From positions 1 through 22,160 of IMG/VR virus record IMGVR_UViG_3300020183_000510: DNA of 22,160 nucleotides. One strand, given 5' to 3'. The stretch comes from a virus. The first letter of the stretch is position 1. Each line of letters starts with the position of its first letter. This document shows positions 21-22,160 of this stretch, one piece after another. The position numbers were made by a program, and so were the translations under genes. The notes beneath the pieces are model-generated. The model saw only the letters and a program-made list of their open reading frames with translations. It made no database searches and was not told where the DNA came from.

Positions 21-176
21 ATGGCTAGCAATTCACGCAAAGGAAAGGGTACTGGTGGACTTCGCACTCTTCGTGCAAGAGAGCGTAAGGATATCGCCTA
101 CCTTAAGAAAGTAAACCGAGTACTGAATTCTGAGAGATGCACCGTGAGCCGTGCAGAGACCAGAGGCAAAGTATGA
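21..176 (+). CDS. small basic protein, 51 aa, unknown function
   Basis: A short open frame begins with ATG shortly after a CTAAATA late box and is closed upstream by an in-frame TAG at 12-14, so it cannot extend left. The product is rich in Arg and Lys (starts MASNSRKGKGTGG, contains RARERKD) and has no membrane segment. No Shine-Dalgarno site is visible, which fits a near-leaderless transcript. Its TGA stop overlaps the ATG of the next gene (ATGA at 173-176), a typical coupled arrangement here and the main support that it is real. I do not recognise the family. Its charge would suit nucleic-acid binding, but that is inference. Confidence 0.5.
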   Translation: MASNSRKGKGTGGLRTLRARERKDIAYLKKVNRVLNSERCTVSRAETRGKV

Positions 177-874
177 AAGCACATAGAATGGCGAAGGTCG
201 CTGATGAGATTGCTCCTCTGTCAGAAACCGTTTATGAAATGAGGATGGCGGATCCTAAGTTGTACGACGCTGCGAGAAAGAGTTTCCCTCCGACATTCGC
301 TGCAAGACTAGGAAAAAGTAGTGAGTGGTACAACGAAACCATCAACAAGATGACAAGAATAATGTTCGATATGTGGGCATCTCAAGGTGGAAGAATGTCG
401 ATGGATCAGTTGGCTAGATCTGCCAAGGTCAAGTTGGGTCTGTTTGGTGAGTCAACAGAAGTTAACGAAGCACCTGTCATGGACATGCCCGTCCAATCGA
501 TGCGTGGGTACAGCCCACAACAGTTTGAGAATAGGTTCCGAGATCTCATGGGAATGCTTGGCTTCTCAAAGGCTCTACCTATCAAGAAGTTCGGATCCTC
601 GTTCTGGGTCTCCTTCACGAACATGCCAAAAGCAAAAGACTTCGCAGTGACTCTTGAGAAACTTCTCAGAAGAAGTGTGAAATCCAACATGAGACTGACG
701 AGAGTCATAGAAATAGATCCTGACGATGAAGCAATTCAAAAGGGGTATGTTCCATCATCAACCCGTGCGGCTGTCGTAGTCAATATGGCAAGCGTAATGG
801 AAAGCGTTCTGATCGATCAAGGATTCCAAGACTTACTTGAATCACTAAACAACTTTCAAATAGAAGGGGAATGA
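173..874 (+). CDS. hypothetical protein, 233 aa, with VNE|A site
   Basis: I chose the ATG at 173, not the in-frame ATG at 137, because it overlaps the previous stop as ATGA and has AGAGG at Shine-Dalgarno distance; the upstream start lies inside the previous gene. No known domain is recognised. The N-terminus contains PLSE|T at residues 15-19. A linker at residues 93-100 reads ESTEVNEA, nearly the same as a linker (ESVEVNEA) in the next gene product. Both fit the (I/L/V)-x-E specificity of T4-type prohead proteases. The sequence after the linker (residues 112-233) looks like a separate alpha/beta domain. It is followed after three bases by the 752-residue gene, so the two are probably co-transcribed and related in job. 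Confidence 0.8.
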   Translation: MKAHRMAKVADEIAPLSETVYEMRMADPKLYDAARKSFPPTFAARLGKSSEWYNETINKMTRIMFDMWASQGGRMSMDQLARSAKVKLGLFGESTEVNEAPVMDMPVQSMRGYSPQQFENRFRDLMGMLGFSKALPIKKFGSSFWVSFTNMPKAKDFAVTLEKLLRRSVKSNMRLTRVIEIDPDDEAIQKGYVPSSTRAAVVVNMASVMESVLIDQGFQDLLESLNNFQIEGE

Positions 875-877
875 GAT

Positions 878-3136
878 ATGTGGCAACATTGGCAACGCAT
901 CATTAAAGAAGAAGCCGAAAAGTACGGTTATGGACAGAAAGAGGAAGTGCATGTATCTGAAGCAACTTCGATCTCCTTACCCTTCTCCTTCATTCGTCAG
1001 CAGCAATGGGAGGAAATGAGATCCAAGTACAAGCCTGGTACGCCTGTCAGCATAACCCTAAAGAACGGCAAGACCGTTCCGGGAATACTTATCCGTATAG
1101 ACAAGTATGATAAAGGGTTTACAATGCAGGGTCATTTGCTCCGTGTCAAGACCGCACATGGTAATGTGAAGATCGAAGATGTGGAGATCAAGAGCGTTCA
1201 ATGGAACGATGATCCTAAGACCAGAATTGGTGAGGAAACAGAGATCGAAGAGGCGAAAGCCCCACGCTTTCCTAAAGGGTTGTTGCTATCAACCAAAGAG
1301 GAAGTTGAAGAAGCATACGCTCCCCTTGACACGAAGGGAATCGTCGGTGCGTTCACCGAGGCAACGAAGAAGAAGCGGTTTGAGTACCGCAATTCAACCG
1401 ATTCATGGGGCAAGAGTCATGGGTTCCCACACGAAGTCTGTGTCTCTTCACCCGGCGGGGGACTTACCCAATGGAGATCAGCGAATGTCAAGGGAACCGT
1501 CTGCTACATTGTTGTCGATGAGGGAGAAGAAGGCAAACCCGTGACAGAGAAGTGGGTAATCCGCAACCATGTCAAGTATGTGAAGGCTGAGAGTGTTGAG
1601 GAGGTTCAGAAGGAAGAGGAAGAGCAGTTGGATGAATTGACTGGTGGCGAGGTGATGATGTATACTATGGCAAGTTTTGTTGCGTTGTATCCTACCATGC
1701 CTCCCATGTTGATCGCTCGGTTCCTTGCGTCCAAGGCTGCTGACAAGTTCAAGGACTTGATCGCCAAAGTCAAGTCCAACAACAGGATTAGCCCATCGGA
1801 AAAGGATACCCTCAAGTCTGCTATCAAGGGAACAAAGGCTGAGAGTGTTGAGGAGGTTCAGAAGGAAGAGGTCTCCGAAGGCGTTCGCATGATGGCGGGT
1901 GTTGAGAAGATGCTCAAGGACGAGGGTCATCCGACGATGGTCGGTTCCCTCCGCAACACCAAGAAGTCGCTTGAGGGTAAGCCCACAGGTAGCGTCATGG
2001 TTCTCACCAAGGAGAAGAGTCCTGAGAGCATGGAGATCAAAATCTATGAGCCAAGCGACTTCGCTTCGATGACGAAGGGTCTCACCAAGAAGGCAGAAGC
2101 CAAGGTTGGTTCCAAGGGCAGTTGGTCGGGCGGCGAAGTTACCGTCATTGCCATCAAGGAAGAGGTCGAGATCAATGAGAGGTTCACTCAACAGAATGCA
2201 CAGATGATCAAGCAGCAGTTGGGTGGAGGAAAGTTCGTTGCCATGACAGGTGCAAAGAATTTCCTGTTCCACAGCAAGGACTCCTATCTTTCCTTCAAGA
2301 TCGGTGGGGGTGCGAAGAATGGAATCAACTACATCAAGATCATCTACAACCAAGGCAAGGATGACTACACGATGGAGTTCTACACCATCCGTGGCATGAA
2401 TCCCGCCACGATGAAGCACCGTGTCGAAGGCGTATATGCGGATCAACTTCGGGAGATCTTTGAAAAGCACACAGGATTCTACACTTCCTTGGGCACGATG
2501 GGTTCACGAAAGGAATCGGTCGAGGTTAACGAAGCCAAGTTCAGCACTAACGATCTGCTCGACTCTATTGAGAGTGCTTACAAGAAGGGTGGACTCAAGG
2601 GAGTCATCCAAGGCGGCAAGAAGTTTGGTCTGATCGATAGAACAACCGTTGATGAACTACTTGACTCTGCCAAGAGTATGTTTGGTGCCGACCTCAAGAA
2701 GGCAGCAACAGAGATTAAGGGATTCCTCAAGCCACAGGACTATGCGAAGTACAAGACCAAAATGGAGAGCGTAGAAGAGAGTGATAATTGGAAGCAGATC
2801 TATGAATCCAAAGCAGATGAAGCAGCAAATCTTGCCAACGAGATTCGCAAAGTGGCGAAGAACAATGGTGTGTCCATTACCGTAGAGAGTAATACCTCTG
2901 TTTCTTTTAGTAAGGACTTCACAAAAGGCAACATGGATGAATTCTTTGCTGCTTATCGTGACTGCGATCAAGTTCGTAGAATGGTCAAATTCAAGAGCAG
3001 AGGAAATGAGTGGGGCTGCGGATCGAGTGGTTTCGGAATCGGCGCACAAGAATGCGTCAAGAGCGGCAAAGTTAGACTGAGTAAGAGTGGTGACGGTGCC
3101 TCATACTTACTCAAGGCACTAAGCAAACGATTCTAA
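878..3136 (+). CDS. 752-aa modular protein, possible polyprotein with repeated linkers
   Basis: The ATG follows AGAAGGGGAATG three bases after the previous stop. The protein is a chain of roughly 80-120-residue modules joined by acidic linkers containing ESVEE or VNEA. Candidate (I/V/L)-x-E sites fall at IIKE 8-11, VSE 26-28, IEE 123-125, VEE 143-145, LDE 251-253, VSE 332-334, INE 432-434, VNE 550-552 and VEE 632-634. Residues about 34-107 look like a small beta barrel of SH3/KOW type. Residues 254-320 contain a hydrophobic stretch (MYTMASFVALYPTMPPML). The module at 435-540 (ending HTGFYTSLGT) and the C-terminal glycine/cysteine-bearing module match no family I can name. In T4, the prohead protease gp21 cuts after (L/I)-x-E. 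I infer that the product is cut into small virion peptides. It could instead be one intact structural protein. Confidence 0.85.
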   Translation: MWQHWQRIIKEEAEKYGYGQKEEVHVSEATSISLPFSFIRQQQWEEMRSKYKPGTPVSITLKNGKTVPGILIRIDKYDKGFTMQGHLLRVKTAHGNVKIEDVEIKSVQWNDDPKTRIGEETEIEEAKAPRFPKGLLLSTKEEVEEAYAPLDTKGIVGAFTEATKKKRFEYRNSTDSWGKSHGFPHEVCVSSPGGGLTQWRSANVKGTVCYIVVDEGEEGKPVTEKWVIRNHVKYVKAESVEEVQKEEEEQLDELTGGEVMMYTMASFVALYPTMPPMLIARFLASKAADKFKDLIAKVKSNNRISPSEKDTLKSAIKGTKAESVEEVQKEEVSEGVRMMAGVEKMLKDEGHPTMVGSLRNTKKSLEGKPTGSVMVLTKEKSPESMEIKIYEPSDFASMTKGLTKKAEAKVGSKGSWSGGEVTVIAIKEEVEINERFTQQNAQMIKQQLGGGKFVAMTGAKNFLFHSKDSYLSFKIGGGAKNGINYIKIIYNQGKDDYTMEFYTIRGMNPATMKHRVEGVYADQLREIFEKHTGFYTSLGTMGSRKESVEVNEAKFSTNDLLDSIESAYKKGGLKGVIQGGKKFGLIDRTTVDELLDSAKSMFGADLKKAATEIKGFLKPQDYAKYKTKMESVEESDNWKQIYESKADEAANLANEIRKVAKNNGVSITVESNTSVSFSKDFTKGNMDEFFAAYRDCDQVRRMVKFKSRGNEWGCGSSGFGIGAQECVKSGKVRLSKSGDGASYLLKALSKRF
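1583..1618 (+). repeat. 36-bp direct repeat, copy 1
   Basis: An exact 36-base match to 1835-1870, beginning AAGGCTGAGAG and ending GAAGGAAGAG. It encodes the linker KAESVEEVQKEE in the 752-aa protein. The copies are 252 bp apart (84 codons), so both are read in the same frame and enclose one complete module. Identity at every base, including third codon positions, points to recent duplication or recombination, not selection on protein alone. Confidence 0.9.
1835..1870 (+). repeat. 36-bp direct repeat, copy 2
   Basis: Second copy of the linker-coding repeat, identical to 1583-1618. Recombination between the two would delete or duplicate the enclosed 84-codon module without a frameshift. Confidence 0.9.
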
Positions 3137-3168
3137 TCGAATCAGGAACAGGAATTTCGAAGAACTTC

Positions 3169-3197
3169 TTGACACGCCCCGCAAGGGGCGTTATCCT
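3169..3197 (+). promoter_or_regulatory. sigma70-like promoter with hairpin in spacer
   Basis: TTGACA at 3169-3174 is followed after 17 bp by TATCCT at 3192-3197. The spacer holds the perfect stem-loop CGCCCC-GCAA-GGGGCG. The predicted start near 3204 gives a leader of about 58 nt before the ATG at 3262. The -10 match is only 4 of 6, so this is a moderate call. Confidence 0.5.
3175..3190 (+). terminator. hairpin, possible terminator after the 752-aa gene
   Basis: A six-bp GC stem (CGCCCC/GGGGCG) with a GCAA tetraloop is followed by TTATCCTTT. The T run is weak, so termination may be partial. It lies 39 bp after the stop of the upstream gene, a natural terminator position, and also inside a promoter spacer. 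Confidence 0.5.
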
Positions 3198-3211
3198 TTA
3201 CACAATCCTCG

Positions 3212-3245
3212 GTGCGACCTTCCCTCATGCGACGGGGGTTCGCAC
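3212..3245 (+). other. leader hairpin upstream of small membrane protein gene
   Basis: GTGCGA at 3212-3217 pairs with TCGCAC at 3240-3245, and inner C-rich and G-rich stretches extend the stem. It would lie in the 5' leader of a transcript starting near 3204. It leaves the AAAGG before the ATG free, so any regulatory role is open. No T run follows, so it does not look like a terminator. Confidence 0.35.
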
Positions 3246-3261
3246 ACCAAGAAAGGCAGAC

Positions 3262-3492
3262 ATGAAATACAAAAAGCCCACAATCATCGTCGCATTCTTC
3301 CTTACTGCAATCACAACTCTCGCTCTTTCAATTGGACTCAATCTGGCATGGTTCGCCCTCTATGAGTTCACGAAGGACAGTCTCTCCCTTTCGTACTTCC
3401 GAACATCTTGTTTGATCGGGGGGCTGATTTGGTTTGTGGTCATGGCTCGTAATACTCCCAAGATCTTGAACGATTTTGAGAGCAATCAATAA
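3262..3492 (+). CDS. small membrane protein, 76 aa, two TM segments
   Basis: The frame is open from 3169, but I chose the ATG at 3262 because GAAAGG precedes it and the upstream part runs through structured leader sequence. The protein starts MKYKKPT and has two hydrophobic segments at about residues 8-30 (VAFFLTAITTLALSIGLNLA) and 50-66 (TSCLIGGLIWFVVMA), separated by a charged loop, giving a hairpin-type inner-membrane topology. No family is recognised. Small two-TM phage proteins include holins, antiholins and superinfection-exclusion proteins, but nothing here decides between them. It has a sigma70-like promoter and structured leader, unlike the late genes on both sides. Confidence 0.7.
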   Translation: MKYKKPTIIVAFFLTAITTLALSIGLNLAWFALYEFTKDSLSLSYFRTSCLIGGLIWFVVMARNTPKILNDFESNQ

Positions 3493-3495
3493 ATA
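3489..3495 (+). promoter_or_regulatory. T4-late-like promoter box ATAAATA
   Basis: ATAAATA contains the TAA stop codon (3490-3492) of the upstream gene. The predicted start near 3501 gives a 13-nt leader with GAAAGGAAA before the ATG at 3514. Unlike several other late boxes in this window, this one leaves room for a Shine-Dalgarno site. Confidence 0.6.
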
Positions 3496-3513
3496 CACCG
3501 AAAGGAAATATAC

Positions 3514-4005
3514 ATGAGTGACAGTAGAGTTCTACTTACTACGCCAGCATCGCCTATTTATCACAACTCTGAACCGACAGATACAACAGACATTGAAGTT
3601 CAAAATCGATGGAAAGGCAAGTGCCTTGAAGAGTTCTATGATATTAGAGGGGCAGGCCAAGAGACCACTCAAGACGGAGTTCAAACGAAACAGGAACTTG
3701 TTAGATCAATTCTTGTTTGGGATGCTAATAGCAAAGCCCCTGCTATTTTCATGGATGGAGTCTGGACAAACTATGGTTACACCAGAGATGCCTTAATTGT
3801 GCCCGGTACGAGTGACCAAATTCGTGCAGAGTTTGACGATTGGTACAGCAAAAATCCAAACAATTCGATTCGATCAAACACATGGAATGTTCAAGTTGAT
3901 CCGAAGATTGGTACTGTCGAGGATGCAAAGAAAGAAATACATGGAATCTTTGCAAACTACCTGACAGAAATTGCATCCTCTGTCACATCTTCCGTGGTGC
4001 TATAA
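3514..4005 (+). CDS. hypothetical late protein, 163 aa
   Basis: The ATG is preceded by GAAAGGAAA and an ATAAATA late box. The product is soluble, with no signal peptide or membrane segment. It is rich in Trp, Thr and Asp, with stretches such as SILVWDANSKAPAIFMDGVW that suggest beta structure. No domain is recognised and no capsid-targeting-like N-terminus is visible, which sets it apart from the next genes. A late promoter and a following stem-loop suggest a single-gene late unit, possibly a virion protein (inference). Confidence 0.75.
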   Translation: MSDSRVLLTTPASPIYHNSEPTDTTDIEVQNRWKGKCLEEFYDIRGAGQETTQDGVQTKQELVRSILVWDANSKAPAIFMDGVWTNYGYTRDALIVPGTSDQIRAEFDDWYSKNPNNSIRSNTWNVQVDPKIGTVEDAKKEIHGIFANYLTEIASSVTSSVVL

Positions 4006-4043
4006 ACATAGCAAACAAATACATCGACCTTGGCAAGGGGCGG

Positions 4044-4057
4044 GAGGGGAAACCCTC
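4044..4057 (+). terminator. GAAA-tetraloop hairpin, possible terminator
   Basis: GAGGG-GAAA-CCCTC forms a compact stem-loop 38 bp after the upstream stop, followed by TCGCTTTC. It lies just before the late box at 4073, so it may separate the two late units. The T tract is poor. Confidence 0.4.
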
Positions 4058-4072
4058 TCGCTTTCAATATGG

Positions 4073-4079
4073 CTAAATA
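4073..4079 (+). promoter_or_regulatory. T4-late-like promoter box CTAAATA
   Basis: CTAAATA in GGCTAAATACTCCC. The last A taken as -6 places +1 at 4085, the G of a GTG codon that opens a frame starting MISFRQHINE. This predicts a leaderless mRNA and helps choose that start. Confidence 0.65.
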
Positions 4080-4084
4080 CTCCC

Positions 4085-4372
4085 GTGATATCATTTCGTC
4101 AACACATCAATGAGAATAGCACAGCGAATATGCTCTACTTAAGTGGTGGAGCAGGATTTGCTTTGGATAGAGTTGCATCTAATTTTGATGTTGAGGACTA
4201 TCCAGAGAAGAAGAAATCGATGAAACCTTGGGAAGTTGAAAACGCTGATTTGGCAAATAAGAGAAGAGAGTTCATTATGAACTGGATGAAAGCGGTCTCT
4301 GCAAACAAAGAAGAGGCAGTCAATTCAAAGAGTTTACCAAAAACACCAGCATGGCAGTCGAGGACAAGATGA
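4085..4372 (+). CDS. possible internal virion protein, 95 aa, capsid-targeting-like N-terminus
   Basis: The frame is open further upstream, but GTG at 4085 sits on the predicted +1 of a late promoter and gives the N-terminus MISFRQHINE|NST. This resembles the next gene's start (MKSFKSYITE) and, from memory, the T4 internal-protein capsid-targeting peptide MKTYQEFIAE, cut by gp21 after I-x-E. The first downstream ATG (4130) has no Shine-Dalgarno site and would lose this motif. The rest is soluble and Lys-rich with no recognised domain. The end overlaps the next start as ATGA. Packaging into the head is inference. Confidence 0.65.
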   Translation: MISFRQHINENSTANMLYLSGGAGFALDRVASNFDVEDYPEKKKSMKPWEVENADLANKRREFIMNWMKAVSANKEEAVNSKSLPKTPAWQSRTR

Positions 4373-5286
4373 AGTCATTCAAGTCTTACATCACGGAGAA
4401 ACATGATGGAGATGGAGATTGTATGCAGGCGGCTGCAAATCTCATGATGCGGTTCTACACCGATTTCTTTGGTCCTAAGATGAAAGCCAAGGGTAGCCCT
4501 CTTCTAGTACACTCTCTGGTATATGGTCAAGGAAAAATTAAAGGGTATAGATTCCCTCATGCTTGGGTTGAGGATGGAGACACAGTTTATGACTACTCAA
4601 ATGGACGGAAAGTTGAGATGAGTAGAGCGGTGTACTATGCAATCGGTAAGATTGATCCGAAGGAAAAGGGTGCTTACAAGAGATATGCTTTCTCAGACAT
4701 GAAAAAGAAAATGATGTCCACAGGTCACTATGGACCTTGGGAATTAGATGAAACTCTTGAGGAATCAAGAGGCATCATCACAAACAGAAAGCAAATAGGT
4801 AAGCGTCGTAAAAGTGTTTCCACAGAAATACTACGGGCAATCAGAGAGTCATTGGGTGAAGGAATCGTAAGTGACCGTCCCACCACGGGTGCATACGCAG
4901 GCACACGCACGGGGGCGCAGGCGCACACGCCCGTGACATGGAACGATCTAAAGAGACTTGAGTCTGTATTGGACAACATGTTTCGTGCGGCGAAACTTGA
5001 TATAGCATTCACACGACACTTCTGGGAACGAATCAACGGTAGCCGTGGATATGGTGGTACAGTTAGCATTCCAGAAATCCAAGATGCGTTCCGTAAGACA
5101 TACCAAAAGTATGCACAACAGATCAGTACACATCCAGTCGATTGGAAGGCAATCATCAATGATGTGAGTAAGGATTTGAATATGCCTTTCACTCTGGATT
5201 GGCAAGGTAGCATGAAGAAGATGGTCATGGTTACAGCGATGAAGAAACCAGACTTTAAGAGTTCAGATCCAAAACTAAAGGTTTAA
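4369..5286 (+). CDS. two-domain protein, 305 aa: Cys-His-Asp hydrolase-like plus conserved C-terminal domain
   Basis: I chose ATG 4369 over in-frame ATG 4351 because GAGGA lies at Shine-Dalgarno distance and it overlaps the previous stop. The N-terminus MKSFKSYITE|K looks like a T4-type capsid-targeting sequence. Residues 15-128 hold Cys18 (GDCMQAAANL), His64 (PHAWVEDG) and Asp75 (YDYSNG), an arrangement like papain/NlpC/transglutaminase-type hydrolases; this is a motif-level reading. Two more (L)xE sites (LEE 130-132, LGE 162-164) and a GC-rich repeat-coded linker at about 172-190 separate a second domain (191-305) that ends in FKSSDPKLKV, a type of ending I recall from other T4-like phage proteins. 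It may be a virion-packaged effector (inference). Confidence 0.75.
   Translation: MKSFKSYITEKHDGDGDCMQAAANLMMRFYTDFFGPKMKAKGSPLLVHSLVYGQGKIKGYRFPHAWVEDGDTVYDYSNGRKVEMSRAVYYAIGKIDPKEKGAYKRYAFSDMKKKMMSTGHYGPWELDETLEESRGIITNRKQIGKRRKSVSTEILRAIRESLGEGIVSDRPTTGAYAGTRTGAQAHTPVTWNDLKRLESVLDNMFRAAKLDIAFTRHFWERINGSRGYGGTVSIPEIQDAFRKTYQKYAQQISTHPVDWKAIINDVSKDLNMPFTLDWQGSMKKMVMVTAMKKPDFKSSDPKLKV
4886..4935 (-). repeat. GC-rich linker repeat, inverted relative to 21911-22048
   Basis: Fifty GC-rich bases encode the interdomain linker. The reverse complement shares an exact 18-base word (CCCGTGCGTGTGCCTGCG) and a 16-base word (GTGTGCGCCTGCGCCC) with the tandem repeat in the lysozyme-like gene at 21.9-22.0 kb. 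Composition is sharply different from the surrounding coding sequence. Confidence 0.75.
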
Positions 5287-5296
5287 GGGGAAGAAG

Positions 5297-6301
5297 ATGT
5301 CGAAGACATATGATAAATTCAGACAATACTTGGAAGAGAAGTTGCTCATCCTCGGAGGAGGAAAGAAGTACGGTCAAGCAGTCATACTTTCGGGTGGAGC
5401 AGGATCGGGAAAGTCATACGCCACGAATCACTTCATTCAGGGAGAGAACTACAAGATCTTGAATGTCGATGATCTAAAAGATCTCGTACTCAAGTTATCG
5501 AAGTCCTCTCAGAGAGTGGGACTCAGCACACAGATGCAACTTCTGCTTCCTCAGGTTTCGAAACTTGATATGAGAAATCCTGAGGACACATCCAAATTAC
5601 ATCAACTCATGAGAGACTTTGACCCCAAGGAGAAAAGAATCTCACAGATACTATTCAATCCAGGTGGTACTAGATCTTACATGCCAAACTTGATGTTCGA
5701 CTGCACTCTCAAGTCACAGGGAGATGCATACTGGATTGTTGGTACACTTCGGGCTGCTGGTTATAAACCTGAGGACATTCACATCGTTTGGATTTTGACT
5801 GACTATAAGATTGCTCTCCGACAGAATTATAACAGAGGAAGAAGGGTCTTTAATGACATTCTTCTCGATACACATCTTGGTGCAAGGATGACCATGACCG
5901 ACTTGGTATTCAAGGACTATGGTAAACTCAACATCAATGGTGACTTGGCAGTTATCGTGGGTGGACCTCAACAGAAGTATGGAAATATGTCTTGGCAGAC
6001 AGCAGGAAGTACAATGATAAAGAGTGGTGGACAGGTTCTCCCTGTTCACTTAGATAAGAATGGTAATCCTATGAAACCAGGTTTCACAGGGAAGGCATAT
6101 GGGCAAACTGCTCCTGCTCCAGCAGAGTGGGCAAAGGACTTCACTTACTTCAGATTGAAGAAGGCTGGAAAGCAAGGAATAGACGATTCACAGATAGAAA
6201 GAATAAATTGGTTCATGAGTCTATTGGCACCGTTTGGAGATAGGAATGCAATAGCGAGCGATCTGTCGAAAATGTATCCTGAAACCAGCAAATCTAAGTG
6301 A
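5297..6301 (+). CDS. P-loop kinase / zeta-toxin-like protein, 334 aa
   Basis: The ATG follows AAGGGGAAGA. The N-terminus MSKTYDKFRQYLEE|K again resembles a capsid-targeting peptide with an L-x-E site at 12-14. A Walker A motif GGAGSGKS lies at 33-40, followed by NVDDLKD (56-61) where zeta-toxin-like kinases have an acidic catalytic residue. A later FDCTLKS (132-138), a strand-like IHIVWILTD and an Arg-rich segment RQNYNRGRR (173-181) resemble the substrate and lid regions of zeta-type and polynucleotide-kinase-type phosphotransferases. The C-terminal 110 residues are unassigned. It lies within the run of capsid-targeting-like genes, so it may be a packaged kinase or ATPase acting early in infection (inference). 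Substrate is unknown. Confidence 0.75.
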   Translation: MSKTYDKFRQYLEEKLLILGGGKKYGQAVILSGGAGSGKSYATNHFIQGENYKILNVDDLKDLVLKLSKSSQRVGLSTQMQLLLPQVSKLDMRNPEDTSKLHQLMRDFDPKEKRISQILFNPGGTRSYMPNLMFDCTLKSQGDAYWIVGTLRAAGYKPEDIHIVWILTDYKIALRQNYNRGRRVFNDILLDTHLGARMTMTDLVFKDYGKLNINGDLAVIVGGPQQKYGNMSWQTAGSTMIKSGGQVLPVHLDKNGNPMKPGFTGKAYGQTAPAPAEWAKDFTYFRLKKAGKQGIDDSQIERINWFMSLLAPFGDRNAIASDLSKMYPETSKSK

Positions 6302-6342
6302 TATTCATTTGAACATAGCAAACAATGGAGTAAACTATCAGC

Positions 6343-6948
6343 ATGAACAACCAAAATCTCTACTCTCTACTTGAAGCAAATAGCAAACTAGCCCGTGAGA
6401 GGAAAGAACTCATTCGACTCATTCGAATTCTCAACAAGACAATCACAGAGTTGTCTGTTGCTGCCGAACTGTATGGTGAGGGAATGTCAATTGAGGCTCA
6501 CAAGTACAAGAGTATTCCCAAGGGGTTCATCAATGCGATGATGGAGAATCGCAAGATGGTTGAAGATGTGACGAAGATGAGCAAGCAAAGTGTTGCAACC
6601 GTAGAGAAGAGTATGGTTGAGAGATCGGGTGGAGTTGACGATCAACTCATGGGGAATGCTTACTTCGAATCTCTCATCGAGGAGATGAATCGGCTCAAGA
6701 ACAATTCCATCAAGAACAACTACATGAACCAACTATGGTTCGAAGGTTACATGGGAGCCGATGGTAACTGGAAGTTCAAGAAGGTCAACAAGAATCCAAA
6801 GGACATCAACAAGGCATTTGGTGATGATCTAAACAAGTATCTGACTGATGCAATCAATCAGATGTTCAATCAGATGGATAACAAGCCTGATGATGAACCG
6901 CATCACGATGATCGTGACTACTATCTTGGAGAACCTGACGAGGGATGA
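6343..6948 (+). CDS. hypothetical protein, 201 aa, helical, LLE|A site near N-terminus
   Basis: The ATG has TGGAG upstream. The N-terminus is MNNQNLYSLLE|A, with an L-x-E site at residues 9-11. Residues 12-130 are strongly helical with many Lys and Glu (for example KLARERKELIRLIRILNK), likely coiled coil. The C-terminus is acidic and His/Asp-rich (DDEPHHDDRDYY). No domain is recognised. It is coupled to the next gene through an ATGA overlap. A head-internal or scaffold-like role would suit the composition and the site, but this is inference. Confidence 0.75.
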   Translation: MNNQNLYSLLEANSKLARERKELIRLIRILNKTITELSVAAELYGEGMSIEAHKYKSIPKGFINAMMENRKMVEDVTKMSKQSVATVEKSMVERSGGVDDQLMGNAYFESLIEEMNRLKNNSIKNNYMNQLWFEGYMGADGNWKFKKVNKNPKDINKAFGDDLNKYLTDAINQMFNQMDNKPDDEPHHDDRDYYLGEPDEG

Positions 6949-7538
6949 TCTTGGAAAACTGCAATACTTATTTGATCAACGAAGCATCGATGGTTCGCCT
7001 CTACCAACACACGGTAGAGAGGAACATTGGAATCATTTCTGCTTCCCGTGGTAGATACACCAAGTCCGAGAATCTAGACCGAAGTCGGAAGTTGGAGTCT
7101 GATATTCGTGCAGCGGGGTTTGGTTTCTATCGCCTTGAGGGTCACTACATCGAAGGATACAAGACCGATAAGGCAAAGGATGTCAAGGAGAGATGTTACC
7201 TGGTCATCGGTGAAAAGATGGCTGATAACGGAAATCTCAAGGGCATTCTCAAGAAACTAGGGTCGAAGTACAATCAAGACTCGATTCTTTACAAGCCCTA
7301 CAACGACAAGAAAGCATACCTTATTGGAACTCAGGCGACAGATGAAGAAGGAAACTCTGTTGACTTTCCCGGTCTTGGCAGAGAGGTATCTGTGGGAGAA
7401 TTCAAGCCTATGAAGGTTGGAGAATTTTATTCACGCATGAAGGGCAAGCCATTTGTGTTTGAATCTTATGGGGTACCGAAGACTTGGGTTGAGATGTATG
7501 CTGAATACTTGCGTACTAGGTTGGAAGACCGGGCTTGA
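6945..7538 (+). CDS. hypothetical protein, 197 aa, INE|A site near N-terminus
   Basis: The ATG overlaps the upstream TGA and has GAGG before it. The N-terminus MILENCNTYLINE|A carries an I-x-E|A site at 11-14. The body looks like one alpha/beta domain: NIGIISASRGRYTKSEN, then RKLESDIRAAGFGFYRLEGHYIEGY, then a strand CYLVIGEK, a pattern I recall from phage proteins of unknown function. There is no membrane segment. The stop codon TGA lies inside the -35 box of the following promoter, and the gene closes the run of capsid-targeting-like genes that starts at 4085. Confidence 0.75.
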   Translation: MILENCNTYLINEASMVRLYQHTVERNIGIISASRGRYTKSENLDRSRKLESDIRAAGFGFYRLEGHYIEGYKTDKAKDVKERCYLVIGEKMADNGNLKGILKKLGSKYNQDSILYKPYNDKKAYLIGTQATDEEGNSVDFPGLGREVSVGEFKPMKVGEFYSRMKGKPFVFESYGVPKTWVEMYAEYLRTRLEDRA

Positions 7539-7930: not shown

Positions 7931-8004
7931 GTCTCCGTAACTCAGTTGGATAGAGTAACTGCCTTCTAAGCAGTAAGTCACAGGTTCGAATCCTGTCGGG
8001 GACG
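7931..8004 (+). tRNA. tRNA-Arg(TCT)
   Basis: Full cloverleaf: acceptor GTCTCCG/CGGGGAC, anticodon loop CTTCTAA (anticodon TCT), T arm CACAG-GTTCGAA-CCTGT type, discriminator G. Reads AGA codons. CCA is not encoded. Confidence 0.95.
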
Positions 8005-8009
8005 CTTTT

Positions 8010-8082
8010 GCTTCGGTAACTCAGTTGGTAGAGTAACTGGCTTTTAACCAGTAAGTCGTGGGTTCGACCCCCACCCGAAGCA
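8010..8082 (+). tRNA. tRNA-Lys(TTT)
   Basis: Acceptor GCTTCGG/CCGAAGC, anticodon stem ACTGG/CCAGT with loop CTTTTAA (anticodon TTT), discriminator A. Five bases separate it from tRNA-Arg. No encoded CCA. Confidence 0.95.
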
Positions 8083-8085
8083 TTT

Positions 8086-8169
8086 GACTTTGTGGCGGAA
8101 CTGGCATACGCAAAGGTCTTAGAAACCTTCGGAGTAACATCCTTGTGGGTTCGACTCCCACCAAAGTCA
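8086..8169 (+). tRNA. tRNA-Leu(TAG)
   Basis: Class II tRNA with long variable arm; acceptor GACTTTG/CAAAGTC is perfect; anticodon stem AAGGT/ACCTT with loop CTTAGAA (anticodon TAG). Reads CUA. No encoded CCA. Confidence 0.95.
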
Positions 8170-8187
8170 TTCGGAAAGGAATTATTT

Positions 8188-8271
8188 GGCCTTGTGGCGG
8201 AACTGGCAGACGCAGCAGACTTAAAATCTGCCGCCTTAAACGGCGTGGGGGTTCGATCCCCCCCTTGGTCA
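8188..8271 (+). tRNA. tRNA-Leu(TAA), mismatched acceptor stem
   Basis: Class II tRNA; anticodon stem GCAGA/TCTGC with loop CTTAAAA (anticodon TAA), variable arm GCCGCC...GGCG, T arm GGGGG/CCCCC. Acceptor GGCCTTG against CTTGGTC has a G-U pair and two adjacent U-U oppositions at positions 5 and 6. The rest of the molecule is sound. Confidence 0.85.
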
Positions 8272-8293
8272 TTCAAAGATGTGACATAAGTAG

Positions 8294-8515
8294 ATGTATA
8301 TGGAAGACGATAAGAGCGGAATCAACTGGGAAAAGGAAGATAGAAAGACCTTGATCGCATTGGTCAAGTTCTCTCTTAACTTCGCATCCTATGTTAAGGA
8401 GATGGATCCTACTCTTTGGCGTAAAGCGGGGGAGTATGCCGCAGATTTCACAAAGGAAGATGGCGTGGAGTTTACACCACAGCATGACGGAGAAACGGAA
8501 AATGAAAAAGAGTAG
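8294..8515 (+). CDS. hypothetical protein, 73 aa, acidic
   Basis: An open frame follows the tRNA-Leu(TAA) gene by 22 bases. It may start at ATG 8294 or at 8300 (MEDDKSG). No convincing Shine-Dalgarno site is seen, so its start is uncertain. The product is acidic and helical (KEDRKTLIALVKFSLNFASYVKEMD), with no membrane segment or known domain. The next gene starts inside its 3' end, a normal arrangement for real genes here. Function unknown. Confidence 0.6.
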   Translation: MYMEDDKSGINWEKEDRKTLIALVKFSLNFASYVKEMDPTLWRKAGEYAADFTKEDGVEFTPQHDGETENEKE

Positions 8516-8795
8516 TTGGTCATTCAAGAGCCGATACGGTCAGGATAGAATCCTAACGAAGATCGAAGAGAATCTCTACTCTCTTGAGGGAACCACGATG
8601 TTCACTAGAGGAGGGTTCACTAATGACCCTAGCAGCGGGATTGAATACATCGATATGGAAGGTGGTCCTTTTGTTCAACTGAACGATACGATTACCGATA
8701 CATTTGGTATATTGAAAGATGATCGCAAGATTTTCAAAATCAGTTCGATTCCCACTGGAAAAGATTATGCATACATTCTGATTCGTGTCTCTTGA
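8502..8795 (+). CDS. hypothetical protein, 97 aa
   Basis: I chose ATG 8502, preceded by CGGAGAAACGGAAA and overlapping the end of the previous gene by 14 bases; earlier in-frame ATGs lie deep inside that gene. The sequence starts MKKSSWSFKSRYGQ and has mixed beta-type composition (FVQLNDTITDTFGIL, DYAYILIRVS). No family is recognised. Its TGA stop is part of the -35 box of the next promoter. Confidence 0.7.
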   Translation: MKKSSWSFKSRYGQDRILTKIEENLYSLEGTTMFTRGGFTNDPSSGIEYIDMEGGPFVQLNDTITDTFGILKDDRKIFKISSIPTGKDYAYILIRVS

Positions 8796-8820
8796 CACTC
8801 TCACCGACACTCTTTATAAT
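8792..8820 (+). promoter_or_regulatory. consensus sigma70 promoter upstream of 104-aa gene and tmRNA
   Basis: TTGACA (8792-8797), 17 bp, TATAAT (8815-8820): a full consensus match in both boxes. The -35 overlaps the upstream stop TGA. The expected start is near 8827, only about 9 bases before ATG 8836. It is the nearest visible promoter for the tmRNA. Confidence 0.92.
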
Positions 8821-8835
8821 TACTCCAACATCGCC

Positions 8836-9150
8836 ATGGAAAACTCTACACAGATATCTCAAAGCACTTGCATTCGTGAAGTCCTTGCTGATTACATCGT
8901 GACCAAGATTCGGGAAATCAGCGAAAGAAATTATGGAGCCGCATGGGAGAGTGAAATCGAATTCCTAATCTGGGAAGCGATTCAGGGTGATCCCACAAGT
9001 CGGATTCTTGATGAGGACGAAGTTAAGTATCTCAAGATTGCTTCCGACACATTGAACATGTGGGCAACAAGAGAACCAAATCTGTTCGGAGAAGAAATCA
9101 TTATGATTCCTATCTCTGAATGGAAGCGCAAGTACGAAACGCAAATCTAA
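8836..9150 (+). CDS. hypothetical protein, 104 aa
   Basis: ATG 8836 is chosen because a perfect promoter would start transcription near 8827, which excludes the in-frame ATG at 8785. The short leader carries no Shine-Dalgarno site. The product is acidic and largely helical (CIREVLADYIVTKIREISERNYGAAWESEIEFLIWEAI), with no recognised domain. Its TAA stop directly abuts the first base of the tmRNA gene. Processing of the tmRNA 5' end from this transcript would cut the mRNA exactly at the stop codon, an odd and tight arrangement. Confidence 0.75.
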   Translation: MENSTQISQSTCIREVLADYIVTKIREISERNYGAAWESEIEFLIWEAIQGDPTSRILDEDEVKYLKIASDTLNMWATREPNLFGEEIIMIPISEWKRKYETQI

Positions 9151-9543
9151 GGGGGCGAACTGGTATCGACTAGACAAGACATACAAGAACAGCATGCAGG
9201 AGATGGTTACTAGGCTCCTTTAAAAATGTGACCAAACAACAACTGCCAATAAGAAGCGCAGATTCGTTTACGCAAAGCCCGCTGCTCGTCAGCGTCGCCT
9301 TGCTCTCGCCGCCTAAAAACCGGTGAGAAAGAGTTGGATGATCCCGATAGTCCAACTCTGTATATCGGGACTCGCACTAGGGACAAACGGCTTAACTCAC
9401 ATGTGCCGTGTGCGTATGAGAAACATGTGAGAGCCTCATGAGGAACCCTTGGCCTCATGAGGAAATATCAAGGGGAAGCATGTAGGTAAAGTGGTTCTTG
9501 TAAGAATTGTATTAGCACGGGGGTTCGATTCCCCCCGCCTCCA
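9151..9543 (+). ncRNA. ssrA: tmRNA (transfer-messenger RNA), one-piece
   Basis: The 5' end GGGGGCGAACTGGTATCGAC and the 3' end GGGGGTTCGATTCCCCCC then GCCTCCA form the tRNA-like domain: acceptor GGGGGCG/CGCCTCC with a T arm and discriminator A. The conserved AAGCATGTAG element lies upstream of the 3' half. The mRNA-like part starts at a GCC resume codon (9245) and ends at TAA (9314-9316): 23 codons, beginning ANKKRRF and ending RRLALAA. tmRNA rescues stalled ribosomes and marks the products for proteolysis; an ALAA-type end is the usual ClpXP signal. The tag is unusually basic. CCA is not encoded. It lies within a phage tRNA cluster. Stem pairs 9547-9564 just beyond it may aid 3' processing. 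Confidence 0.93.
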
Positions 9544-9546
9544 TTC

Positions 9547-9564
9547 GGGGATGTAGCCATCCCC
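9547..9564 (+). other. stem-loop just after tmRNA
   Basis: GGGGATG-TAGC-CATCCCC, a perfect 7-bp stem starting 3 bases after the tmRNA discriminator, followed by AATTCAAC with no T run. It may define the 3' processing border or stabilise the downstream mRNA. Confidence 0.5.
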
Positions 9565-9590
9565 AATTCAACTTCAACAAAGGAGAAAAA

Positions 9591-9800
9591 ATGGCTAAGA
9601 ATGAGACTGGTTCGTGTCCGTTGTTTGGTGGTTGCGATAAGTTGTCGTGCCTTCTTTCGAAGGTCGGCATCAACCGTAGCCTTCTGATTACGCTTGGACT
9701 TCTTCCGTTCGCATGGAACGGTGTGGTCTTCCTTAAGAACTTCGCTGTCAGCGTTTGGTCGCATCTTTCGACCGGTCTGACTACGGCGTTCGGTGGCTGA
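9591..9800 (+). CDS. small hydrophobic protein, 69 aa
   Basis: The ATG is preceded by AAAGGAGAAAAA, one of the best Shine-Dalgarno sites in the window. The product starts MAKNETGSCPLFGGCDKLSC with three closely spaced cysteines, then a likely membrane segment (LLITLGLLPFAWNGVVFL) and a further amphipathic part ending in TTAFGG. No family is recognised. It is likely an early membrane-associated small protein, given its place between the tmRNA and tRNAs. The cysteine pattern could bind a metal, but this is a guess. Confidence 0.75.
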   Translation: MAKNETGSCPLFGGCDKLSCLLSKVGINRSLLITLGLLPFAWNGVVFLKNFAVSVWSHLSTGLTTAFGG

Positions 9801-9824
9801 TCAAAAAGTCTCTTATGACATGTA

Positions 9825-9844
9825 CCCTTGCAGGGATGCAAGGG
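9825..9844 (+). terminator. stem-loop upstream of tRNA-Gly
   Basis: CCCTTGCA-GGGA-TGCAAGGG, a perfect 8-bp stem ending 4 bases before the tRNA-Gly 5' end. The following GTTTGAG is not a strong T tract, so it may be a processing or spacer stem, not a terminator. Confidence 0.4.
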
Positions 9845-9848
9845 GTTT

Positions 9849-9920
9849 GAGGATGTAACTCAATGGCAGAGTGTTGGCCTTCCATGCCAAATGTTGCGGG
9901 TTCGACTCCCGTCATTCTCT
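9849..9920 (+). tRNA. tRNA-Gly(TCC)
   Basis: Acceptor GAGGATG/CATTCTC (one G-U), anticodon stem TTGGC/GCCAA with loop CTTCCAT (anticodon TCC), T arm GCGGG-TTCGACT-CCCGT, discriminator T. Reads GGA. Confidence 0.92.
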
Positions 9921-9923
9921 TTC

Positions 9924-9995
9924 GGGTCGATAGTTCAACGGCAGAACACTGCCTTTGCAAGGCAGGGGTTAGGGGTTCAAATCCCCTTCGATCCA
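9924..9995 (+). tRNA. tRNA-Ala(TGC)
   Basis: Acceptor GGGTCGA/TCGATCC (one G-U), anticodon stem CTGCC/GGCAG with loop TTTGCAA (anticodon TGC), T arm AGGGG/CCCCT, discriminator A. Starts 4 bases after tRNA-Gly. Confidence 0.93.
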
Positions 9996-10010
9996 CTCAG
10001 GAGACAAACT

Positions 10011-10214
10011 ATGAACTACAATCCAGGACAAGGATACCGTGACGGATACAGCGACAGAAAGAGTGGATCTAGAAGCCGTTGCCCATTTGGATCAGGCACG
10101 ACAGATGACCCCTATTGGAGAGAATACAAAGAGGGATACGCTGATGCTGATATGAAGATCCTTGAAGATGCACGAAGAGGAATGAAAGAACAGAATCAGT
10201 TTTTGTCGGAGTGA
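10011..10214 (+). CDS. small hydrophilic protein, 67 aa, GY-rich
   Basis: The ATG has AGGAG at good distance, 15 bases after tRNA-Ala; the longer upstream frame runs through the two tRNAs and is not used. The product has repeated GY motifs (NPGQGYRDGYSDRK and later YWREYKEGYADAD) and an acidic helical end. Small proteins with this GYxxGY pattern occur in many phages with no known role. It is probably expressed with the surrounding tRNA genes. Confidence 0.75.
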   Translation: MNYNPGQGYRDGYSDRKSGSRSRCPFGSGTTDDPYWREYKEGYADADMKILEDARRGMKEQNQFLSE

Positions 10215-10220
10215 AATTTT

Positions 10221-10308
10221 GGATGGGTGGCAGAGTGGTCGAATGCGGTAGTCTTGAAAACTACTTTGGAGTTATACTCCAACGGGGGTTCGAATCCCTC
10301 CTCATCCG
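10221..10308 (+). tRNA. tRNA-Ser(TGA)
   Basis: Class II; acceptor GGATGGG/CTCATCC (one G-U), anticodon stem GTAGT/ACTAC with loop CTTGAAA (anticodon TGA), long variable arm TTGGAGT...ACTCCAA, discriminator G. Confidence 0.94.
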
Positions 10309-10328
10309 TTTGCGTATACGCTTTGTTT

Positions 10329-10418
10329 GGACAGATGGCAGAGTGGTCTAATGCTGCGGTTTACTAAACCGCCGATGGTTCTTGAAGCCATCCGGGGGTT
10401 CGAATCCCTCTCTGTCCG
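10329..10418 (+). tRNA. tRNA-Ser(ACT), unusual A34 anticodon
   Basis: Class II; acceptor GGACAGA/TCTGTCC is perfect; anticodon stem GCGGT/ACCGC with loop TTACTAA gives anticodon ACT; long variable arm GATGG...CCATC; discriminator G, the serine identity base. The usual bacterial form is GCT; here the wobble base is A. Confidence 0.92.
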
Positions 10419-10424
10419 TTTTGA

Positions 10425-10496
10425 TGGCTCGTAGCACAACGGTAGTGCATCCCGCTGTTAACGGGAGGGTTGAAGGTTCGAATCCTTCCGAGCCAG
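10425..10496 (+). tRNA. tRNA-Asn(GTT)
   Basis: Acceptor TGGCTCG/CGAGCCA, anticodon stem TCCCG/CGGGA with loop CTGTTAA (anticodon GTT), T arm GAAGG/CCTTC, discriminator G. Confidence 0.95.
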
Positions 10497-10497
10497 T

Positions 10498-10568
10498 TGA
10501 TCCGTGGTGTAAAGGTAGCACAGGAGATTTTGATTCTCCTTGTCTTGGTTCAAATCCAGGCGGATCAG
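10498..10568 (+). tRNA. tRNA-Gln(TTG)
   Basis: Acceptor TGATCCG/CGGATCA, anticodon stem GGAGA/TCTCC with loop TTTTGAT (anticodon TTG), discriminator G. One base separates it from tRNA-Asn. Confidence 0.94.
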
Positions 10569-10570
10569 TA

Positions 10571-10644
10571 CGGGGCGTAGCACAGTTTGGTAGTGCGCCT
10601 GCTTTGGGAGCAGGAGGTCACAGGTTCAAATCCTGTCACCCCGA
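10571..10644 (+). tRNA. tRNA-Pro(TGG)
   Basis: Acceptor CGGGGCG/CACCCCG with one C-A opposition at position 6, anticodon stem CCTGC/GCAGG with loop TTTGGGA (anticodon TGG), T arm ACAGG/CCTGT, discriminator A. Confidence 0.92.
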
Positions 10645-16093: not shown

Positions 16094-16840
16094 ATGAGAA
16101 GCCTTTGGGTAGTAGGACTGCTTCTTGCAGTCACAGTAAGTACATCTGTAGATCGTGCGGGAGTCAAGGCAAAAATAGCCGAGGCTCCCGTGGTCGTTTA
16201 TGGGGACGCTAAGAATGTGGCAGAGAGAGTGCTATCACACTCTGTCGTGATTCTATATGAGACCTTAGAGGGAAAGAAGTGTCTAGGGTCGGGAGTTCTC
16301 TACAAGAAAGATGGCTGTTGGTTTGTTATGACTGCTGCACATGTGATAAAAGACGAGAAAGAATTTGGCAAAGGAAAGATATCGGTTGCTTTCACACCGT
16401 ATGATTCCGATGTTCCTATGAATGCATGGAAAGGAATTCTTCTTGCTCACAATGAATCCCTTGACGCAGCAATAGTTGGACTAGAGAATGCGGACAATAT
16501 GGATGATTCGATGGATACGATATTCCAAAGAAGTGAAGCGAGAATCGGAAGAGAGGTTTACGCTGTTGGTAATCCTCTTGGGGAGGTCAACACCGTAACG
16601 GATGGAATCGTGAGTAACAATCGACGCAAAGTTGAATGGACAAAAGAGCAGCATATGCAGATCACTTCAAACGGTGCACTTGGTTCTAGTGGAGGTGGTG
16701 TGTTTACAAAAGATACTGGTGAATGCATTGGTATCATTGTGAGAATCAACTATGGGACACGCATTCTTATGGTTGTGCCTACAAACAGAGTGTTTGACTG
16801 GCTGTCAGCAAATAATCTTTCGGCTATAGCACCTGACTGA
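16094..16840 (+). CDS. secreted trypsin-like (HtrA/DegP-type) serine protease, 248 aa
   Basis: A signal peptide is likely at residues 1-22 (MRSLWVVGLLLAVTVSTSV). The catalytic triad is visible: His83 in MTAAHVI, Asp124 in LDAAIVGL, and Ser199 in ALGSSGGGVF, with the VGNPLG segment (158-163) typical of HtrA-like proteases. There is no PDZ domain, so the protein is only the protease module. It would act in the periplasm or outside the cell. A strong Shine-Dalgarno site (AAGGAGG) and a late box precede it. Trypsin-fold proteases are rare in phages; possible roles are virion-linked proteolysis or host envelope remodelling at lysis (inference). The stop abuts the clamp-gene promoter. Confidence 0.9.
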   Translation: MRSLWVVGLLLAVTVSTSVDRAGVKAKIAEAPVVVYGDAKNVAERVLSHSVVILYETLEGKKCLGSGVLYKKDGCWFVMTAAHVIKDEKEFGKGKISVAFTPYDSDVPMNAWKGILLAHNESLDAAIVGLENADNMDDSMDTIFQRSEARIGREVYAVGNPLGEVNTVTDGIVSNNRRKVEWTKEQHMQITSNGALGSSGGGVFTKDTGECIGIIVRINYGTRILMVVPTNRVFDWLSANNLSAIAPD

Positions 16841-21559: not shown

Positions 21560-21888
21560 CCCGTGACGAACTATTGAAGTCTCATAACGAATTGACAAAG
21601 AAGGCTCACGAACTCATGAAGCGAAAGAATGCTGACTACGCCGGTAAGGCTGGTACGGAACCATTCGCTAACTTCACACGATGTGAAGCAATGGGAATCT
21701 GCAATACAGAAGCAGGAATGCTTGTGCGGATGACGGACAAGTTATCAAGACTCTCCTCCTTCGTTGAAGCGGGGGCTTTTCAAGTCAAGGATGAAAGTCT
21801 TGAGGACACTTGTGTTGACATCATCAACTACGCTGTTTTGTTTCACTCCTTCGTTCAGGACAAGAAGAACTCAAACCGAAAGGACTGA
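21556..21888 (+). CDS. Nmad1/DUF1599-type MazG-like protein, 110 aa
   Basis: The sequence KKAHELMKRKNADYAG, FANFTRCEAMGICNTEAGMLVRMTDKLSRLSSF and DESLEDTCVDIINYAVLF fits the DUF1599 (Nmad1, nucleotide modification associated domain 1) family: helical, with KNxDY, MxDKxxR and E(S/T)xxDxxxDxxNYA motifs like the metal-binding helices of MazG/all-alpha NTP pyrophosphatases. A role in nucleotide handling is inferred from family and from its place behind dUTPase. The ATG overlaps the previous stop. Confidence 0.85.
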   Translation: MTRDELLKSHNELTKKAHELMKRKNADYAGKAGTEPFANFTRCEAMGICNTEAGMLVRMTDKLSRLSSFVEAGAFQVKDESLEDTCVDIINYAVLFHSFVQDKKNSNRKD

Positions 21889-21892
21889 CTTC

Positions 21893-22160
21893 ATGAATTG
21901 GATTCTCTCCTGCGTGTGCGTGTGTGCGCCCGTGTGTGCGCCTGCGCCCGTGTGTGCGCCCGTGCGTGTGCCTGCGCCTGCGCCCGTGTGTGCGCCCGTG
22001 CGTGTGCCTGCGCCTGCGCCCGTGTGTGCGCCCGTGCGTGTGCCTGCGGCCCTGACTCCTGAACTACTCGCTGCCATTCGTCAGGTTGAGAGTGGTGGGG
22101 ACGATAAAGCCGTGGGAGATAATGGACGAGCAATCGGACCTTATCAGATTTGGGAAATCT
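21893..22160 (+). CDS. lysozyme/lytic transglycosylase-like protein, N-terminal part, cut by window end
   Basis: ATG 21893 opens a frame that runs off the window. It starts MNWILSCVCVCAP, a short hydrophobic stretch that may be a secretion or anchor signal, though it is short. Then comes a Pro/Val/Cys-rich 12-residue tandem repeat (VCAPVRVPAPAP, 2.8 copies). The catalytic-type domain begins with LTPELLAAIRQVESGGDDKAVGDNG, with Glu in VESGG and GPYQIW, as in SLT/lysozyme-like muralytic enzymes. Peptidoglycan cleavage is the likely role. It is coupled to the preceding gene (4 bp apart). The linker is coded by a GC-rich repeat very unlike the rest of the window. Confidence 0.8.
   Translation, partial: MNWILSCVCVCAPVCAPAPVCAPVRVPAPAPVCAPVRVPAPAPVCAPVRVPAALTPELLAAIRQVESGGDDKAVGDNGRAIGPYQIWEI
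21949..22048 (+). repeat. 36-bp GC-rich minisatellite in lysozyme-like gene
   Basis: The 36-base unit (12 codons) occurs at 21949-21984 and 21985-22020, with a third partial copy at 22021-22048. A related degenerate stretch (21911-21948) precedes it. The period is a whole number of codons, so copy-number change keeps the frame. The same sequence type is found inverted at 4886-4935. Confidence 0.9.

Follow-up and report, generated by a model that had tools for sequence, protein, structure and literature searches.

A shuffled, multi-module polyprotein with protease-type linkers in a T4-like phage points to a possible way of loading the phage head with a changeable cargo

The window analyzed here, a stretch of 22,160 nt, is by its sequence a 22-kb record of a T4-like phage. 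PHROG profiles identified a sliding clamp gene at 16893 and a clamp loader gene at 17587, and the closest clamp loaders of cultured phages (54-56% identical) are those of Pelagibacter, Methylophilales, Stenotrophomonas, and cyanophage myoviruses. The genes from 137 to 7538 form a block, several products of which carry T4-like signals, located directly 5' of a tRNA cluster (7931-10644). Inside this cluster of 14 tRNA genes lies a phage tmRNA at 9151-9546 (Rfam RF00023, 102 bits; tag ending in LALAA); phage tmRNAs have been reported e.g. in methylophage and Stenotrophomonas phages (PMC9004378, PMC8928761). Short tandem repeats at 21871-22133 give rise to low-complexity minus-strand ORFs (GAGTRTGAHT-type) and are probably non-coding.

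The gene of main interest, designated W, had been described in a first-pass annotation as encoding a 752-residue protein of modules separated by repeated protease-site linkers. The ORF was found as described, with AAGGGGAA immediately 5' of its ATG. The linker repeats named at that time were also recovered, namely ESVEEVQKEE (twice), ESVEVNEA, and ESVEES in W, and ESTEVNEA in the neighbouring protein, which comprises 233 aa when read from the ATG at 173. The two occurrences of ESVEEVQKEE are encoded by a perfect 37-nt DNA repeat, AAGGCTGAGAGTGTTGAGGAGGTTCAGAAGGAAGAGG, whose two mismatch-free copies bracket the module formed by residues 254-334. The features of the locus are listed in the table.

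Table. Features of the polyprotein gene W and of neighbouring genes (res, residues; ↓, predicted cut)
Feature	Coordinates	Strand	Remarks
Neighbouring gene	137..874	+	Signal-like MKAHRMAKVADEIAPLSE, module X, linker ESTEVNE↓A, module B
Gene of 752-aa modular polyprotein (W)	878..3136	+	ORF; start signal common to L002, L003, L004
Capsid-targeting-like signal MWQHWQRIIKE, N-terminal	878..910	+	Predicted cut after E11
Module D, res 29-125	962..1252	+	LSM/SH3-like by weak profile matches
Apparent remnant of a deleted module, res 126-145	1253..1312	+	Both ends match L002 module ends
Module F, res 146-253 with linker	1313..1636	+	phrog_23785 1.3e-13; pLDDT about 95
37-nt linker repeat copy 1, KAESVEEVQKEEE	1583..1619	+	Perfect direct repeat
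Module res 254-334, helical	1637..1879	+	37-nt repeats on both flanks; modelled helices, moderate confidence
37-nt linker repeat copy 2	1835..1871	+	Perfect direct repeat
Module I, res 335-434	1880..2179	+	In L096, L140, L146, L004; pLDDT about 90
Module J, res 435-552 with linker	2180..2533	+	phrog_9437 2.9e-25; pLDDT about 95
Module K, res 553-634, helical	2534..2779	+	In L002, L004, L096, L146; separate domain in model
Module L, res 635-752, alpha/beta	2780..3133	+	In L002 (92%), L003 (56%), L099 (46%)
Second two-part signalled protein, 311 aa	4351..5286	+	Starts MKSFKSYITE↓K
P-loop protein	5297..6301	+	Signal-like start MSKTYDKFRQYLEE↓K (N-terminus by eye); phrog_5268 1.1e-44
S-AdoMet lyase Pfam family protein	6945..7538	+	PF23780, 47.9 bits, cut-off 28

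Scans of viral contigs revealed eleven further proteins of the same kind (355-1098 aa). In the resulting twelve polyproteins, eighteen module families are present in differing subsets and orders: D-F-I-J-K-L in W; F-H-K-L in L002 (734 aa); N-E-T-L in L003 (471 aa); B-C-H-G-T-K in L004 (1098 aa), in which G is followed by a weak I ahead of T; B-C-R-I-E-G-H-K-F-M in L096 (1066 aa, on a 168-kb contig); D-E-Q-F-B-O-M in L097 (953 aa); B-E-F in L098 (457 aa); F-N-X-L in L099 (538 aa); F(truncated)-J in L014 and its near-copy L015 (355 aa); B-C-T-Q-G-E-R-I in L140 (774 aa); B-C-O-F in L142 (543 aa); and H-I-K-T in L146 (723 aa). These orders were obtained by seed searches and omit unseeded segments; single-linkage clustering of the cut segments fused unrelated modules and was replaced by the seed searches. 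The order of two modules can also be inverted, as E precedes G in L096 and G precedes E in L140, and B precedes F in L098 and F precedes B in L097. Since subsets and orders differ in this way, the modules must have been swapped, re-ordered, lost, and shortened among the relatives. The L004 chain, which has a perfect 24-nt linker repeat of its own, gave no match in cultured phages.

The modules of W share this history to different degrees. Module D, whose Pfam LSM match was below the cut-off, has a 58-62% identical copy at a different place in the L097 chain. For the 20 aa at residues 126-145, the intact counterpart is a 75-aa module of L002 (residues 27-101), so that this segment looks like the remnant of a deleted module that L002 has kept. 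Module F is present in seven further polyproteins and module I is 62-81% identical in L096, L140, and L146 and weaker in L004. For the module at residues 254-334, no relative was found in the viral contig scans. Pairwise comparisons gave dN/dS values of 0.04/0.63 for module L with L002, 0.11/0.61 for module F with L096, 0.08/0.30 for module J with L014, and 0.11/0.80 for module I with L096. As dS exceeds dN several-fold, these modules are maintained as proteins.

Two of the related sequences showed peculiarities. In L002 (524-2728), an extended segment at residues of about 427-563 is hydrophobic and rich in glycine. It matches parts of PHROGs annotated as peptidase and endolysin, is perhaps a membrane-inserting module, and is not present in the W chain. 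A relative of the L146 polyprotein at L148:4293-6206 has its frame split into several ORFs, due to sequencing errors or decay.

Several of the modules also exist outside of polyproteins. Module J (phrog_9437) was detected at 234 viral loci and is a gene by itself at many of these; free-standing forms also occur in Milano, phiN3, and other phages, and module F is free-standing in phiM12. The free-standing forms of J and F start at or a few residues from the predicted cut and stop short of the linker. Two of the modules, as free-standing genes in other phages, lie among small accessory genes, which suggests a role in host take-over or anti-defence rather than in capsid structure. In L058, families J, H, and B are encoded by separate adjoining genes, of which those for H and B have their own signals, MWQNWQNKILRE↓AAKFGY and MYNWDKKLARE↓AMKWGY. 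The two-part genes of the window show the same transitions: of the modules of gene 137-874, X is part of the L099 polyprotein and B of six other polyproteins, and the 311-aa protein (4351-5286) corresponds to two genes in L002, starting MKSFKSYLTE and MKSFKSYIIE↓A. Because the same families exist as separately signalled genes, a joint fold or joint action of the modules is not necessary.

The first-pass annotation had placed nine (I/V/L)xE sites at the module borders, with fragments starting at residues 12, 29, 126, 146, 254, 335, 435, 553, and 635. All nine are present at exactly these positions, but they were picked from 20 [ILV]xE motifs of the chain, seven of which fall within domains. The total of 20 compares with 13.2±3.1 in shuffled sequences of the same composition (p 0.023), and [ILV]xE[AGS] occurs eight times compared to 3.0±1.7 (p 0.0095). 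As this count is only weakly above chance, it is the position of the sites and not their number that bears the argument, and motif counting was rejected as the sole argument. Defining the linkers by pLDDT <50, which places nine of the 20 sites in 28% of the chain, was likewise unconvincing alone.

The positions were evaluated with all twelve related proteins. Homology ended ≤5 aa from a site in 70 of 168 cases, compared to 33.2±4.7 with rotated sites, and none of 20,000 rotations equalled the observed value. When seeds were padded, 39 of 47 module starts lay within 3 aa of a site (expected 6.7±2.4). The density of sites outside module interiors was 3.9-fold that inside, with borders partly chosen by hand, and the figure of 60/62 for hand-chosen seed borders is biased by their having been picked with the sites in view; weight is therefore placed on homology ends and padded seeds. 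Finally, 58 of 61 windows of 17 aa at module starts contained the motif, compared to 31.1±3.4 after shuffling each window, and 48 compared to 9.1±2.7 when P1' was limited to A/G/S/Q. Since the excess persists after this local shuffling, the frequency of the motif is not explained by the linkers being acidic in composition. At 60 border sites, P4 is E in 31 cases, P3 is V (27), I (17), or L (16), P2 is E/S/N/T, and P1' is most often A (29), followed by G (9), Q (6), and S (5). The known rule of the T4 prohead protease is L/I-x-E, and in T4 IPIII a change of the P1 Glu to Asp inhibits processing (PMC9026906). The chief difficulty is that P3 at the borders is most often Val, which this rule does not cover.

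The departure at P3 speaks for a rival reading, in which the chain is packaged and ejected whole, or minus its signal, and acts as one multidomain protein, with the acidic linkers serving as flexible spacers and the motif being incidental. Such a behaviour would resemble that of polyvalent proteins, which join 2-15 domains per delivered chain (PMC5512222) and, like W, combine many effector-like domains with extensive shuffling; several unrelated domains shuffled between relatives were indeed found here. Large polyvalent protein associated domain 29 (LPD29) is above the cut-off in L146, which on sequence grounds connects T4 internal proteins with polyvalent proteins. In the W chain, none of the typical polyvalent domains (MPTase, ART, DarB-type, LPD) was above the cut-off. 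Unlike polyvalent proteins, W has linkers with head-protease sites and a T4-type signal, and an autopeptidase (MPTase) was not found. The excess of border motifs over local composition and the separately signalled genes argue against delivery of the intact chain, and we consider this explanation unlikely.

Structure prediction and comparison with relatives, by which the first-pass annotation had proposed to check its claim, both agreed with a modular chain: the modules occur alone, shuffled, and re-ordered, with borders at protease-type sites, and the models show separate domains with mostly low-confidence linkers. With AlphaFold2 (whole chain, 37 alignment rows, pTM 0.35), modules F, I, and J were confident domains with pLDDT of about 90-97. 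Values <50 were obtained for residues 17-42, 75-150, 237-248, 250-264, 318-333, 538-557, 631-638, and parts of module L, and the I/J border (434) showed a slight dip. Modules K and L predicted together formed two domains, L being a domain of its own, with a gap at 633-639. The models of D, 254-334, K, and L were built on few sequences, and linker pLDDT was lowered in part by missing alignment rows there; for these reasons the models support folding as separate domains without proving it. A search of the chain against PDB sequences gave no match at E up to 1, and Foldseek searches against the PDB gave nothing under 0.001. The best VIA-align Z scores were 7.5 for the first model (mostly module J) and 5.4 for the second, the usual level without true matches, and no function was obtained from the Foldseek and VIA-align comparisons.

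The N-terminus of W, MWQHWQRIIKE↓E, resembles in sequence a T4 capsid-targeting signal (about 10 residues ending in L/I-x-E, here IKE); T4 ipIII, according to its record, starts MKTYQEFIAE↓A. MWQHWQRII[KS]E↓E is shared by W, L002, L003, and L004, while the remaining chain differs. L096, L098, L099, L140, L142, and L014 have a QR[RS][IL]L-type signal followed by [AE]A[AV]K[FY]GG or a close sequence (pattern M..(x)QRRILAE↓A, e.g., MNEFQRRILAE↓A), and the common signal is absent from L097 and L146, whose N-termini differ. T4 IPI-IPIII and Alt resemble W in that their N-terminus is a short signal of the form M..[FYW]...[IL].E↓A with an L/I-x-E cut (PMC9026906). Like the presumed cargo encoded by W, the T4 internal proteins are fast-changing, and their genes form a block beside a tRNA cluster, with ipIII and ipI flanking it, one on each side. 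In the block of the window, the 6945-7538 protein has a signal-like start MILENCNTYLINE↓A (LINE↓A), judged by eye, and may be an anti-restriction enzyme that is carried within the head; no report of a phage SAM lyase in virions was found in the literature searched.

The candidate for the cleaving enzyme is the prohead protease gp21, which is not encoded on the 22-kb window itself but on contigs of relatives. Those of L004, L096, and L014 carry gp21 (PF03420, E 1e-33 to 1e-35), gp22, and gp23, and alignment of their major capsid proteins with T4 gp23 showed YLRE↓[AS]APTNF, a site of the same class as those in the linkers, at the expected propeptide end. The window contains another protease, an HtrA/DegP-like serine protease (16094-16840, Trypsin_2 1.2e-19), adjoining the sliding clamp gene and conserved in the relatives G001, G002, G004, and G008. 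It is highly improbable that this or a host enzyme cuts the chain, be it in the cell that makes the phage or in the one newly infected, as the product starts with a signal-peptide-like stretch, its closest solved relatives, HtrA/DegP, are not glutamate-specific, and the targeting signals and gp23 point to gp21.

Several prohead-protease cuts per chain, as proposed for W, are known for T4 gp22, gp67, and gp68 and for the propeptides of SPN3US gp53/gp54 (PMC9026906, PMC10052503), where the fragments arise as a scaffold or propeptide is removed. W might accordingly be a scaffold or core protein that is shredded by gp21 like gp22, the modules being filler that leaves the head, and gp22 of the relatives is likewise full of such sites. 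This is very unlikely: gp22 is already present as a separate gene between gp21 and gp23, the W chain gave no gp22 profile match, and the modules are conserved, folded, and exchangeable domains under purifying selection that also exist as genes of their own, even in unrelated phages.

We thus regard it as probable, on the basis of the sequence comparisons, that W is an internal-protein polyprotein which uses a single targeting step, is cleaved by gp21 to give several small cargo proteins, and is rearranged in units of cassettes. By analogy to T4 internal proteins, the single N-terminal signal would carry the entire chain into the prohead core. At head maturation, a T4-type gp21 would cut after (V/I/L)-x-E in the linkers, as the coincidence of sites and module borders suggests, removing the signal and releasing about seven independently folded small proteins. 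These presumably stay associated with the DNA and enter the host by ejection when the phage next infects. The comparison of relatives indicates that phages acquire and lose modules, change their order, and exchange them with one another, and the perfect 37-nt and 24-nt repeats suggest that exchange is aided by recombination in repeated linker DNA. The earlier proposal of a capsid polyprotein cut into small proteins finds good support in the comparisons with respect to a head polyprotein with protease-type borders; a capsid-building role is not supported, because the modules look like ejection-type cargo behind a T4-like capsid-targeting signal.

In T4, each signal serves one cargo, cut at the propeptide end (in Alt also near the C-terminus). 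W differs in having one signal for about seven modules, which are exchangeable and have a site at every border. The literature searched, largely outside subscription journals, contained no account of a polyprotein of this type from T4-like phages, and the organization is likely, though not proven, to be new to the literature. The shuffled, lost, or separate pieces in the relatives point to a possible, so far undescribed way of loading the head with a changeable injected cocktail.

Tailed phages inject proteins along with their DNA. To our knowledge, few such cargo sets have been recognized, and they are hard to spot by sequence. If the chains are cut at the linkers, the linkers mark cargo, and any segment lying between two sites can be taken as a candidate for an injected effector; the list then comprises 18 or more module families, of which nearly all lack a known function. 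W would then be an example of a cargo polyprotein processed by a protease in a DNA phage, and chosen proteins could be loaded into phage heads by means of its signal-and-linker grammar. We see even chances that aquatic T4-like phages in general load cargo in this way: a single signal would bring in three to ten unrelated effectors in equal numbers, the head protease would release them in the capsid, and repeats in the linker DNA would make each of them an exchangeable cassette. The injected cocktail could then be re-assorted without new targeting signals.

Such a system may extend to marine multidomain proteins, e.g., L016, L036, and L044. Together with L038 and L051, these are marine phage proteins of 510-668 aa with a C-terminal module J and several VNE-type linkers, and they seem to follow this principle in phages of other kinds. 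L036 and L038 start with MKLKELHE or MRLKDLHE followed by nucleotidyltransferase-like sequence, and the others start with SKKQQKFMG.
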